34,790 bases of DNA from Bdellovibrionales bacterium (GCA_014323935.1 JACOND010000002.1:1-34790), one strand, 5' to 3'; positions 28,847 to 33,883 are shown, counted from the first letter of the stretch. A program made the numbers and translations. The notes: generated by a model not told the origin, from the letters alone.

Positions 28847-30118
28847 ATGTTATTTGAAAAGAAAAAAATATTTTCTTTAACTCGTTTTTTTCATGAAAAA
28901 CCAGAGCTTCCTTGTTGGTTGGCTGGAAGATTTTTTGAAAAAGATTCAAATCATTATTTTTTAAAATCTCAAGGGAAATTTATAGTCTGTAAAAAGGATA
29001 GTTTTTCTAAAAAAGTTAAGCAAGGAGATTGGTTAGCTGTTTATCTTTTATCTCAAAATATGAAATCTTTAGGAAATAATAAAGACGAAAAGATTTTTAA
29101 AAAAGAGTCTTCTTTTTTAGAATCTGTGTATTTAACAAAAGCCTGTTATATTTTAAACCGGCCAGAAGATTTTTATATTGAAAAGAATTTTTCTTATAAA
29201 AAAAAAGGTCAGGTTTTACAAAAATGGCATTTCTTTTTAAGAGCTGTAGAGGGTTTTTTTATTTCTAAAGGTTTATCCTTTGCTTCAACTCCGCATTTAG
29301 TAGAATGTCCCGGCACAGAACCTCATTTAAAACCTTTAAAAAGCTCTTATCGAAATTACTATTTGGCAACGAGTCCTGAAATTCATTTGAAAAAACTTTT
29401 ATGTCAGGACTGGACAGATTTTTTTGAAATTAAAACTTGTTTTAGAGAAGAGGAAAATAATTCTACTCATCAGATAGAGTTTAGTTTGTTGGAATGGTAC
29501 CGTGCTTTTTATTCTTTAAAAGATCTCATGACAGAGCTTTATGAATTGATTTTGTTTTTAAAAAAAAAAGGTTTTTGTAAGAGAGATATTCCTTCCCCTC
29601 AATTTTTTAGTGTCTCTGAATTGTTTCAAAAGTATTTGAATTTTCCTTTAACCCCCAAAAACTCTAAAAAAGAGCTTTTGAATTTAGCAACAAAACAAGG
29701 TCTTTTTGTTTCTTCAAGCTTAAATTTTGAAGATCTGTTTTTTCTAATATTTTTAAATAAAATTGAACCTCAATTGTGTCAAAAAAACCCTTTCTTTATA
29801 TACAATTATCCACCTCAACTCAGAGCTTTTTCTCAAATTAATAAAGAGGGTTGGGCTCAAAGATTTGAATTCTACTGGCAAGGATTAGAGTTAGCAAATG
29901 CTTTTTATGAAGTGACAGATTTTAAGGAGCAAAGAAACTTATTTCAAGAGCATTTAGAACAAAGACAAGATGACATTCTTTTAGATGAAAATCTTTTAGA
30001 TCTGATGAAGAAAACTGCTATGCCTCCCTCTTGTGGTATTGCTGTAGGTTTAGATCGTTTATTTTTAGCTTTCACTGAGGAAAAAGACTTAAGAAAAATG
30101 AGATTATTTCCTAGTTGA
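28847..30118 (+). CDS. epmA: EF-P lysine aminoacylase EpmA with N-terminal extension
   Basis: 423 residues. The last 310 are a class II lysyl-tRNA-synthetase-like core (GenX/PoxA). It includes VEGFFISKGLSFASTPHL, LATSPEIHLKKLL, FEIKTCFREEENNSTHQIEF, LLEWYRAFYS, ELANAFYEVTDF and GIAVGLDRLFLAF. EpmA joins (R)-beta-lysine to a lysine of EF-P. E. coli EpmA has about 325 residues, so the first 100 here are extra; KQGDWLAVYLL could be part of a small beta-barrel. The start has AAGGAAAG. The last two codons and the stop (Pro-Ser-TGA) come from the end of the insertion element. Without the insertion the gene would read ...MRLFSL and stop. Confidence 0.92.
   Translation: MLFEKKKIFSLTRFFHEKPELPCWLAGRFFEKDSNHYFLKSQGKFIVCKKDSFSKKVKQGDWLAVYLLSQNMKSLGNNKDEKIFKKESSFLESVYLTKACYILNRPEDFYIEKNFSYKKKGQVLQKWHFFLRAVEGFFISKGLSFASTPHLVECPGTEPHLKPLKSSYRNYYLATSPEIHLKKLLCQDWTDFFEIKTCFREEENNSTHQIEFSLLEWYRAFYSLKDLMTELYELILFLKKKGFCKRDIPSPQFFSVSELFQKYLNFPLTPKNSKKELLNLATKQGLFVSSSLNFEDLFFLIFLNKIEPQLCQKNPFFIYNYPPQLRAFSQINKEGWAQRFEFYWQGLELANAFYEVTDFKEQRNLFQEHLEQRQDDILLDENLLDLMKKTAMPPSCGIAVGLDRLFLAFTEEKDLRKMRLFPS
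30103..30109 (+). repeat. Target-site duplication, left copy (ATTATTT)
   Basis: Seven bases directly before the left inverted repeat of the insertion element. They are repeated at 32492-32498. An 8-bp reading (GATTATTT) is possible if the last base of the right end is counted. Confidence 0.75.
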
Positions 30119-30126
30119 GTGCTAAA

Positions 30127-30659
30127 CTATAGCTTTTTTCTTATTTCTGCGTGTTTTTTATGTATCCAGTCTGGCCACTTATCTTTTCTTTCCTGCAAAT
30201 TCCACAAGGGAAATTGATCTTTTCCAGCTTTCCCTATTGAGTAATCATCTTTACAAGCTTTTTCAAATTCTAAAGAAGGCGAGACACTAACATAATGTTT
30301 TTTATAAAGACCTTCAATCTCTCTTTTTATGCCTTCAGAAAATTTAAGATATATCTCAACTAGATTTCTTTTTTTTAATTCTTTTTCAATATAGCAATTT
30401 ATTCCAACATTTCTTACACTTGGTTTTCCTGACCTTGCTTCTTGATAAAAACCCAATGTTCCCTTAATGCCAGATTTATCTTTTGAATATCCAATCTTAT
30501 AATTTTTTCCATTAATAGCTATCAAATAAATCTTCCTATCATTGTCTTTTTAAGAAAATCCTTATTCTTACAAACCCCATAATCAAATTTAATTCCTGTT
30601 TTTCTATTTAAAACAGCTTTAGCCACTAAAACAAATCCTTTTGTTTTTGATATTTCCAT
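30127..30659 (-). pseudogene. Passenger gene, frameshifted; possible GIY-YIG nuclease
   Basis: From ATG at 30657-30659, 15 bases after the methyltransferase stop, the frame reads MEISKTKGFVLVAKAVLNRK, then TGIKFDYGVCKNKDFLKKTM, and stops near 30523. The next frame, open to 30127, continues YLIAINGKNYKIGYSKDKSG and then a basic protein ending HKKHAEIRKKL. One indel near 30540 separates them. The joined product has about 175 residues. YLIAING-KNYKIG followed later by REIEGLYKKHY resembles the GIY, YIG and distal Glu of GIY-YIG nucleases such as Eco29kI-type enzymes. This is a pattern match by eye only. Its place after a methyltransferase suggests the matching restriction enzyme. The TTG start at 30525 lacks a ribosome-binding site. 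Confidence 0.6.
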
Positions 30660-30674
30660 AATTCAAGTTGAATT

Positions 30675-31601
30675 TTAAATTTTAATTGCCAATATCTCGT
30701 GAGATTTTTTTATATATGCATTTTGTTTTAATAAGTTTCTGTTTCCTAATGTTTTTGAGATTCTAGTTTCTCCCTGCCCCATAGTATATTGCCAGTTAGG
30801 ATAAACGAGTTCATATTCTCTATAATAATCTCTTGCTTTATTGCAATTATTATAAGATAAAATAAACTCGCCTTTATGGTTTTTTAAGCAATCTCTTAAA
30901 AGATCATGGTTAAAGTTATTATGGTAAAAGGGTTTATTTCTTTCAGGATAAACTCCATTAAACATTTTACTTGTCGGACAATCCTCTTTTAAAAAATAAG
31001 GGGGATCACAATAAAACAAATCATTCGGATATTTTTTAAATAATTTTTCAAAAGACCAGTTATGTATTTTTATATCAGCTTTAAAATGTCTCACTTTATC
31101 AATCAGTTTTTTATATCTTTTTTCATTCAAATAAACTTTCGAAGGCCAGCCTATAAAACTTGGTCCATAACTTAAAGCATGATTAAAGAAAAAATATGTT
31201 GCAAGTTGAAGGTTTGTTAATTTCTTTTTTTTTGCTCTCCAATCTCTACATATAGCCATAATTTTATAATAAGTGTCTCTATCTGGATTTATTTTTTTTA
31301 AAGACCTATAAAGCTGTTCTGGTTTATTCAACTGCAAATCCCAATAATTAGCCAAAGGTTTATCTATATCTGATCCTATAACTTTTATTCCTAGTTTTTG
31401 AGCGATTACAATCTCAACACTTCCACCACCAAAAAAAGGAGAGATAAGTCTTTTTATATTAGGCAATTTTTCAATAATATGACCTACAGCTAAAGACTTC
31501 CCTCCAGCATACCTAATAGGGGACAAAGAAAGTCTTTTATATTTGTTTTTATTTGACTTTAAACTATTTAAAAGAGCTTCTTTTCTTTCTTGAAAAATCA
31601 T
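30675..31601 (-). CDS. D12-class DNA adenine methyltransferase
   Basis: 308 residues. SPIRYAGGKSLAVGHII (about 27) contacts SAM, SPFFGGGSVEIVIA (about 54) is motif I, SDIDKPLANYWDL is motif II, and LFYCDPPYF (about 195) is catalytic motif IV (DPPY). Together these mark a Dam/DpnII-like N6-adenine methyltransferase. The core looks complete, so it is probably active. Its ATG overlaps the stop of the transposase remnant (ATGA), and it lies wholly inside the insertion element as a passenger. The next gene, 15 bases on, may be the partner nuclease, now broken. If so, the methyltransferase is an orphan survivor. The recognition sequence cannot be told. Confidence 0.9.
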   Translation of the reverse strand: MIFQERKEALLNSLKSNKNKYKRLSLSPIRYAGGKSLAVGHIIEKLPNIKRLISPFFGGGSVEIVIAQKLGIKVIGSDIDKPLANYWDLQLNKPEQLYRSLKKINPDRDTYYKIMAICRDWRAKKKKLTNLQLATYFFFNHALSYGPSFIGWPSKVYLNEKRYKKLIDKVRHFKADIKIHNWSFEKLFKKYPNDLFYCDPPYFLKEDCPTSKMFNGVYPERNKPFYHNNFNHDLLRDCLKNHKGEFILSYNNCNKARDYYREYELVYPNWQYTMGQGETRISKTLGNRNLLKQNAYIKKSHEILAIKI

Positions 31602-32351
31602 GAGACCATTTTAAATTTCTTATTAAAATCATATTTTAACAGGTCCAGATTTAGCTGTAGCCGTTCGTTAGACCTGTTAAAAGACCAAGACTTTCTGTTC
31701 ATTCGGCTTAATCTATTTCTTACTAAAGCACAAGTAAAGTTTAAGTGTTGTAAATAATAATCAGCTTCTCTACCCTTTAATTTTAGATAGTCATTGTTAG
31801 GATAATGTTTTTCTATTATTGGAACATACATCTTATCATCATCACAAAAAAAGGTTGTTCTTTCGCTTACAAAATTTTTCACATCCGATAACACCTTATT
31901 TAAAATTGTATATCTATCCACCCCACTTCTAAAAGATAAAATCTTATCATATCCACTTACAGCTAAAGCAATATAAAGTTTTTGCTTCTCGCCTTTTAAT
32001 CCAAGTGTGCATTTCGTCTATCTGTATTATATGGCATTTTTCTTTTTTGCCAGTCACCTCTTTTTTGTTTTTATGCACTGCAAATTTAGAATATTTAATA
32101 AACTTTCTGACAGAAGTTCTGTAATCACACTTGGCTAATCTAGCCGTGCCTCTAAGAAAACCTCCCTCTAAATAAGACTCTAAAATCTTGCTATTTAAAG
32201 CTGGTTTCTTTTCTCTGTATTCAGGTAAGAAATTTCTTTATGTGAATGTTCTTTTGCAGTCATTACACTTAAACCGCTGTATTCTTTTGCTCCACTTTAT
32301 TGTCTTGACCTTTCCAAATTTTTTGATATTCTCATTTTGAGGGCATTTCAT
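31598..32351 (-). pseudogene. IS1-family-like transposase, broken
   Basis: The start is the ATG at 32349-32351 after GGAAGTGG. The zinc-ribbon N-terminus MKCPQNENIKKFGK...RIQRFKCNDCKRTFT lacks one cysteine of the first CxxC. A TAA follows RTFT; beyond it the same frame reads NFLPEYREKKPALNSKILES, then CHIIQIDEMHTW with the first catalytic Asp. A frame change near 32010 leads to LGLKGEKQKLYIALAVSGYD and to the 107-residue open part ending LVRNRLSRMNRKSWSFNRSN and YDFNKKFKMVS. The last part matches the InsB C-terminus of IS1. One stop and one frameshift make it inactive. The frameshift does not resemble the A6C site of IS1. Confidence 0.85.
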
Positions 32352-32491
32352 ATCCACTTCCCGTCTTCTATAAGACTTATCAGCGGGATTGCTCCTAGAT
32401 TTTAGTTTTATTTTAAGAAAAAACACTTATTTTATAAGGGTTTTAAGATTTTTTTTGAAAAAAAAAGCTATAGTTTAGTCACTCAACTAGG

Positions 32492-32498
32492 ATTATTT
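32492..32498 (+). repeat. Target-site duplication, right copy (ATTATTT)
   Basis: The sequence after it reads T-CTTTGTAG. Joined to epmA at 30109 it gives TTA TTT TCT TTG TAG, a Leu-Phe-Ser-Leu-stop ending. Confidence 0.75.
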
Positions 32499-32548: not shown

Positions 32549-33883
32549 GTGAAAATCTCTTTTTATTTAACTTTATTAGTCTTAATCTCTTGTAATCCTT
32601 TAATCCCTTATCAACAACAAAGTCGTTCTCAAATATTATCTAATCAGCAAGCTTCCTCTAATCAACAGATTTCTTCTAATGAATTATCTAATAATCCTAA
32701 TCTCATTGGTAGAAATGTTACCCCTGGTAACGGAGCTATTGCTACGGAAAGGAACAATGAGCTTCCCTATGAGTTGATACCAGATTTTATATCCGCATTA
32801 ACTTGTACTCAAAGAGTAAGTAATATCAATCCTCCTTATACTTTATCTATAAGTTCTTTTTTTGAAGGTTTGAGATTATCAGATGAATTTAAGAGAACTT
32901 TTAATTTTAGGGAGGATGAACCGGATAGAATCCGGCAAGCTTTAACTCAAAGTTCTTTTTTAAATGCAACAGCAGAGTTTTCAGTGAGAACAAAAGGCAG
33001 TATAGAAACAACAGTGTCTCTTAATTCTAATCCTATAAACTCTTTATTTCCAAACTTTAATACCTCCTATATTCAAGAGCTGTTAATTAATAAAGGGAAA
33101 GCTTTGTCAACCAGGCCCTCTTCAAATCGTTCTAGATACAATAGCTCTCCTTTTCGTTCTCGGTTTAGAATAGATAATTTGCTATTTGTTAGAGATATAG
33201 CTCCTCATTTATCAGCAGGGAGTATAGGTAACTATCTTTTGACAATGTTATATACTTTTCCCCAATCAAGAAATGTAAAACCCATTTCAACTCCCATTTA
33301 TGATTTTGAGGGAAAGCCCTATGGAAAATCTTATACGATTGATTTTAACTCAAATCTAAATATAGATTATCTCTATAACATTCAAGAAGAAAATCTTCGA
33401 GGTTCTGACCGAGTGGGGAAAAGATGGATTTGTCCAGAAGATTTAAGATTTATAGTTCATAAAAATAAAAGTGAAAGGGATAGTTTTTTTAACAGGGAGG
33501 CGACAGAAAGATACTCTAAAACAGTTCCTTTAGATAAAGTGGGTAAAGAAGGTTACTGTGATATAACAAACCGGCAAATTTTAAAGGATCAGCAAGAAGA
33601 TTTCTTGTCTCTTGAATTTGGTGATCGGTGGCCCTTTGAAGTAGGGGAATTGGTCCTTAGAGAATCGGGTCGACTTAAGAATTCAGGGACCCCTTGTATT
33701 GTATTTCCTGCTAACAGCTGTTATCCTTCTGGTTTTTACCGCATAGAATTTGATTCTCAAAAATTATCTGATTGTAAGAGGATATATCATCAAAGTAGTT
33801 TTGATAATGATTTTAGAGATTCTAATAGCAGTTTCTATAGAGTATGTCCCGCTTTTTTATCAATGTGTTATAGAAGAAAATAA
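32549..33883 (+). CDS. Large lipoprotein of unknown function
   Basis: 444 residues with a GTG start; an overlapping ATG at 32547 runs into a stop at once. MKISFYLTLLVLISC is a lipoprotein signal with the lipobox L-I-S-C, so Cys15 is lipidated. A Gln/Ser/Asn-rich linker with short repeats (SNQQASSNQQISSN) covers residues 25-60. The folded part has several cysteines (for example GTPCIVFPANSCYPSGFYR), suggesting disulfides and a location outside the cytoplasm, probably the outer membrane. I recognise no family. Before the element inserted, the gene lay about 40 bp after epmA. It is followed by an outer-membrane protein gene, so the two may work together at the cell surface. Confidence 0.8.
   Translation: MKISFYLTLLVLISCNPLIPYQQQSRSQILSNQQASSNQQISSNELSNNPNLIGRNVTPGNGAIATERNNELPYELIPDFISALTCTQRVSNINPPYTLSISSFFEGLRLSDEFKRTFNFREDEPDRIRQALTQSSFLNATAEFSVRTKGSIETTVSLNSNPINSLFPNFNTSYIQELLINKGKALSTRPSSNRSRYNSSPFRSRFRIDNLLFVRDIAPHLSAGSIGNYLLTMLYTFPQSRNVKPISTPIYDFEGKPYGKSYTIDFNSNLNIDYLYNIQEENLRGSDRVGKRWICPEDLRFIVHKNKSERDSFFNREATERYSKTVPLDKVGKEGYCDITNRQILKDQQEDFLSLEFGDRWPFEVGELVLRESGRLKNSGTPCIVFPANSCYPSGFYRIEFDSQKLSDCKRIYHQSSFDNDFRDSNSSFYRVCPAFLSMCYRRK

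Follow-up and report, generated by a model that had tools for sequence, protein, structure and literature searches.

A dead IS1-family element at the end of epmA that very probably carried a type II restriction-modification pair as passenger

Introduction

Restriction-modification (R-M) systems are highly mobile, and the route by which they move is often unclear; the usual proposals are long target duplications, composite insertion sequence (IS) units, plasmids and phages. The question of route is raised by a locus of a Bdellovibrionales bacterium (GCA_014323935.1 JACOND010000002.1), where a broken transposase gene, a DNA methyltransferase gene and a broken third gene lie between inverted repeats at the end of epmA. 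We asked whether these genes are the contents of one mobile element, as a preliminary description of this DNA had proposed, or neighbours that met by chance. The whole stretch of 34,790 nucleotides that was analysed is called the window below.

Results

The element spans positions 30110-32491 (2,382 bp) with a G+C content of 29%, similar to the rest of the window, and is bounded by terminal inverted repeats at 30110-30142 (the cargo end) and 32458-32491 (the transposase end, with an exact 24-nt match in contig G014:C82 of a congener). In alignment the repeats comprise 33/34 nt and differ by one 1-nt indel and one mismatch. Their presence and places had been correctly recognized in the preliminary description, but not their size and divergence, which had been given as about 29 bases and a single base. 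The sequence ATTATTT, also reported there, stands immediately outside both repeats (30103-30109 and 32492-32498) as a 7-bp direct repeat. The inverted-repeat pair scored 58, compared with 28-34 for the best matches in shuffled loci, and a pair of such length exactly adjoining a direct repeat is far more than chance would give. Terminal repeats of 33/34 nt with a short target duplication are as expected of an IS1-family element. IS1 elements usually duplicate 8-10 bp of their target, and the 7 bp found here lie at the low end.

On its left side the element has entered the end of epmA, the target gene, which encodes the EF-P lysine aminoacylase (28847-30118, plus strand; TIGR00462, E 1.6e-72). 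With the element present, the last two codons and the stop codon are supplied by the left repeat and EpmA ends in ...KMRLFPS-stop; with the flanks joined over one ATTATTT, the end reads ...KMRLFSL-stop. Removal of the element had been predicted to restore ...RLFSL-stop, and the joined flanks do read so. A comparison of EpmA C-termini agrees with this prediction, the nearest element-free EpmA (G033, 57% identical) ending in ...ETRLFPL-stop. The joined-flank ending is similar to the end in G033, and EpmA was thus barely altered by the insertion. No genome with a true empty site was found; gene order is rearranged in the congener G013, and the G014 assembly holds no EpmA-grade match. The EpmA of the window also has about 120 extra N-terminal residues (28847-29220), the TIGR00462 match beginning at residue 125, which may form an anticodon-binding-like domain; EpmA frames in this bacterial family mostly have 410-530 aa.

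The interior is read on the minus strand and holds an IS1-family transposase gene, then an alpha-class methyltransferase gene and then the third gene, R. A broken transposase, a 4-base overlap with an intact DPPY methyltransferase and a broken third gene, all noted earlier, were found again. The transposase gene (31598-32351; 66% identity to a copy in G014) has a TAA at 32238-32240 in the frame that starts at 32351 and one frameshift near 32005-32020, in its second half. Read through stop and frameshift, its product matches the IS1 family over the full length (NF033558, E 1.3e-17 over residues 2-221, at 64 bits under the curated cut-off of 100). It also matches the IS1/IS1595 zinc-ribbon model, and profile A3 places it among other IS1-like transposases. 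The close subfamily (66-69% identity) was found only in G014, another species of the same genus, and a plasmid search with the transposase gave no match. The gene ends in ...TCATGA, of which ATGA belongs both to the stop of the transposase and to the start (31601) of the methyltransferase. The nonsense codon and the frameshift of the transposase gene leave the window copy unable to transpose, and with these two lesions and the one in the endonuclease the element is now dead. Elsewhere in the same genome (G000), short minus-strand remnants in C10 (L005, 1730-1882) and C27 (L010, 37-171) resemble zinc ribbons of another transposase family, IS1595-like by eye.

The methyltransferase (30675-31601, minus strand; 308 aa) is an intact alpha-class (D12) adenine DNA methyltransferase by PF02086 (E 2.5e-31), with an open reading frame, a DPPY motif and a match to TIGR00571 dam (E 8e-19) that is below cut-off. 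When genome contigs were scanned, a single sequence as query returned nothing and an alignment as query returned matches. Relatives were present at 62 loci of bacteria and archaea, about 50 of them with 42-56% identity, and a relative of the third gene adjoined the methyltransferase at nine of the 62, in tandem or convergent orientation. The pairing recurs in Helicobacter, Patescibacteria, archaea and Synechococcus phages (S-PM2, Syn30, S-P4 and others) without IS1, and no transposase like that of the window was found at the nine loci. In G014 a D12 methyltransferase 50% identical to that of the window lies between purQ and secF, together with a short piece from the start of an R gene (G014:C145, L009, 1734-2850). 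No transposase accompanies it, and a repeat-like match there scored no better than shuffles. This gene was rejected as the source of the cargo, a 99/97 branch separating it from the window protein, and by its place in the tree it is an independent acquisition.

For the third gene (30127-30659, minus strand; one frameshift near 30547-30551, at a short T/A run), searches of Pfam, NCBIfam and the PDB with the single sequence gave nothing useful, and a weak lipocalin match was rejected as chance. The family profile alone succeeded, and it placed Hpy188I first in the PDB (E 0.003) and T4 EndoII second. The predicted structure of a relative from Verrucomicrobia (pLDDT 86.6) likewise retrieved Hpy188I (E 1.1e-5) and T4 EndoII in a fold search, at modest TM-scores of 0.38-0.46 by query length. 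Tyr45 and Lys55-Ile-Gly are invariant in endonuclease alignment A2, Lys replacing the Tyr of YIG. In our own mapping to Hpy188I numbering the window protein has Tyr45, Lys55 in KIG, Thr68, four residues ahead of Tyr72, where the helix Arg would stand, Arg82 within the loop GKPSVR, and Glu133. The R.HpyAORF481P branch has an alpha-class PF02086 partner, Lys for Tyr in YIG, and a catalytic Arg that is missing from the helix and present in the loop (PMC2630997; Kaminska et al., 2008). The alpha-class PF02086 methyltransferase next to R corresponds to that partner. On profile, predicted fold of a relative and catalytic residues, we therefore assign the third gene to the R.HpyAORF481P branch of predicted Hpy188I-like GIY-YIG restriction endonucleases. 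In that study function was determined solely for R.Hpy188I and R.HpyF17I, both members of the other branch (PMC2630997).

The endonuclease gene of the window is interrupted by its frameshift; intact relatives exist, and a plasmid search with a Helicobacter relative of the endonuclease gave no match. The endonuclease of Helicobacter mesocricetorum (L080, 4873-5094 and 6738-7328) is split by an insert of about 1.6 kb, and its frame is broken in a Sericytochromatia genome (L059, 4913-5505) and in Huberarchaeum (L061, 2093-2705), the methyltransferase being open in each case. In an R-M unit the survivable order of loss is that R is lost and M is kept.

Both M and R lie between the transposase gene and the left repeat, that is, as passengers inside the terminal repeats, as in a transporter IS (tIS). 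The R stop codon sits inside the left repeat, together with that of epmA, so that the element has almost no spare DNA. In contig C27 of the same genome (G000:C27, L171, 477-760) the 3' portion of the R gene, in decayed form, runs into a decayed version of the same repeat at similar spacing; methyltransferase and transposase have been lost. The short repeat by itself scored no better there than the best shuffle; what counts as evidence is that R end and repeat align colinearly. The R-end/repeat junction is therefore present at two places in this genome. The divergence of the two copies is too large for recent transposition. No full second copy of the element was found; solo element ends occur in G014, with up to 24 exact bases. 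Pattern matches to the inverted repeat with 3 mismatches were left out, being as frequent as those of a reversed-pattern control.

In G014 the same spot is occupied by other cargo. An element end and a related transposase, 69% identical to that of the window, lie in the same intergenic spot (G014:C280, L041, 4583-6302), 5' of the orthologue of the window gene at 32549 and in the same orientation; the distance to CCGATATTTT, which both loci share, is 47 nt there and 43 nt in the window. Behind this transposase stands a methyltransferase of the unrelated class PF01555 (E 1.9e-18, read through breaks), which is broken by a stop and runs into sequence common with IS3-like transposase ends. Contigs that overlap the broken end lead to IS3-like transposase ends and not to epmA. 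The similarity of the shared flank is modest, 5 of 300 shuffles being as good, and given this we do not claim that the insertion is orthologous in the two genomes. The spot may reflect either an ancestral insertion with exchange of cargo or two elements that entered one place. The neighbouring window gene (32549-33883) is lipoprotein-like, has no Pfam match and was found in no other genus of the family, with identities of 39% in G014 and 28% in G013.

Two further genera of the family, represented by G035:C17 (L043, 2-1691) and G032:C64 (L046, 2096-3458), likewise have an IS1 transposase directly followed by a PF01555 methyltransferase. Their transposases are 64% identical to each other; their methyltransferases are 72% identical over the part left in G032 and 31% identical to that of G014. 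In G032 transposase and truncated methyltransferase lie within repeats flanked by an 8-bp duplication, AAAAATTA. A motif scan that took one locus from each genome found no methyltransferase motif within 1.5 kb downstream at about 27 further IS1-like loci of the class, and other delimited elements of the class are simple and 1.0-1.1 kb long, in comparison with 2.4 kb with cargo in the window. In the transposase tree the four methyltransferase carriers fall within a set of six rows (91/89), the other two being an unresolved contig end (G006) and a viral-contig element without cargo. A strict single clade of the four carriers is weakly rejected (p-AU 0.043), and we do not claim a single capture. 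From this tree at least two captures of a methyltransferase, three by cargo type, are likely.

Discussion

The element in the window is, with high probability, a dead IS1-family tIS, that is, one transposase and short terminal repeats with a type II R-M pair as passenger. The proposal that it carries a whole R-M unit is supported by the IS1-family transposase, the recurrent M-R pair, the Hpy188I-like third protein and the recurrence of the junction. A simple IS1-like element might instead have come to lie beside an R-M unit by chance, with the outer repeat as the relic of a second IS in what was once a composite transposon and has kept a single transposase. R-M units with IS copies on either side are indeed known (PMC3031569), and the solo ends in G014 would suit such a history, but we consider it unlikely. 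There is no IS copy at each end: a single transposase is present, the cargo end is a bare repeat by the R stop codon, which lies within it, and no remnant of a second transposase was seen between R and the repeat. Also against it are the same junction in C27, the start of the methyltransferase within the stop of the transposase, and the three other genomes in which a methyltransferase follows an IS1 transposase directly.

It is quite unlikely, too, that the methyltransferase is an orphan that serves the IS, for instance by controlling when it transposes, the role that Dam has for IS10, and that the small third gene is unrelated to it. An endonuclease was not seen in the other methyltransferase-bearing IS1 elements, whose contigs end or are deleted at that place, and the endonuclease frame in the window is broken; against this, the third gene is Hpy188I-like and is the partner of this methyltransferase family in different phyla and in phages. 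Least probable, and very improbable in our judgement, is that the lesions of the transposase and endonuclease genes were introduced by assembly, in an element that is whole and still mobile. The draft genome comprises 57 contigs and the R frameshift falls in a short homopolymer, but three lesions, one of them nonsense, are crowded into 2.4 kb, whereas priA, epmA and the gene downstream have open frames; moreover, the other copy in the genome is heavily decayed and the relative in G014 is damaged too.

If the tIS reading is correct, the transposase would have acted on the terminal repeats, with duplication of 7 bp of the target, and the ATGA coupling would have made expression of the methyltransferase dependent on the reading frame of the transposase. 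Foreign DNA would have been restricted by the R-M pair, and cells that lost the element would have been punished. By analogy with other type II R-M units, such cargo most probably helped the IS to persist through post-segregational killing, which selects linked R-M copies (PMC3031569). Transposase and endonuclease would have been broken during later decay; the methyltransferase, still open, may serve as an orphan modifier.

IS220 of the IS1380 family is described as a tIS with a methyltransferase passenger (PMC11891212). As in that description, the element of the window has an IS-type transposase and repeats, the methyltransferase of IS220 being dispensable for transposition; it differs from IS220 as described there in belonging to the IS1 family, in carrying a whole M-R pair and in having sister elements with unrelated methyltransferases. 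With the R.HpyAORF481P branch (PMC2630997) it shares a PF02086 methyltransferase adjoining a GIY-YIG endonuclease in which KIG is present and the Arg is displaced, but here the pair lies inside an IS, the endonuclease is frameshifted, and M precedes R directly behind the transposase. Zinc-ribbon and InsB-like transposase and short direct repeats are those of the IS1 family, whereas the other loci of the class that were examined show no methyltransferase downstream. R-M units are known to spread with IS elements and in composite transposons (PMC3031569), but there they lie outside the IS, between or beside its copies, and in the window inside one element.

Methyltransferase-carrying IS and IS-flanked R-M units are thus already known; what is new is a methyltransferase slot that recurs and changes its content. 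In the open-access literature we found no report of an IS1-family element that carries a full R-M pair, or of sister elements with unrelated enzymes in their methyltransferase slot; an earlier description of either is possible. Tentatively, and as a possibility that we do not yet hold to be probable, this bacterial family may have an IS1-family lineage whose cargo slot, immediately behind the transposase, receives unrelated methyltransferases or complete R-M units time after time, perhaps more than once at a single chromosomal site. The IS would then be an addiction module that spreads with exchangeable specificity.

An IS with a single transposase and a whole R-M pair would be a simple vehicle for R-M systems, and its sister elements carry other methyltransferases. 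Such cargo would favour persistence of the IS, loss of which would be punished, and the long-standing idea that R-M systems and IS elements cooperate becomes testable in a unit of 2.4 kb. Since the IS1 element of the window carries a pair of enzymes and related elements of neighbouring species carry other methyltransferases in the same slot, our findings suggest that 'addiction' gene pairs can ride within a simple insertion sequence.
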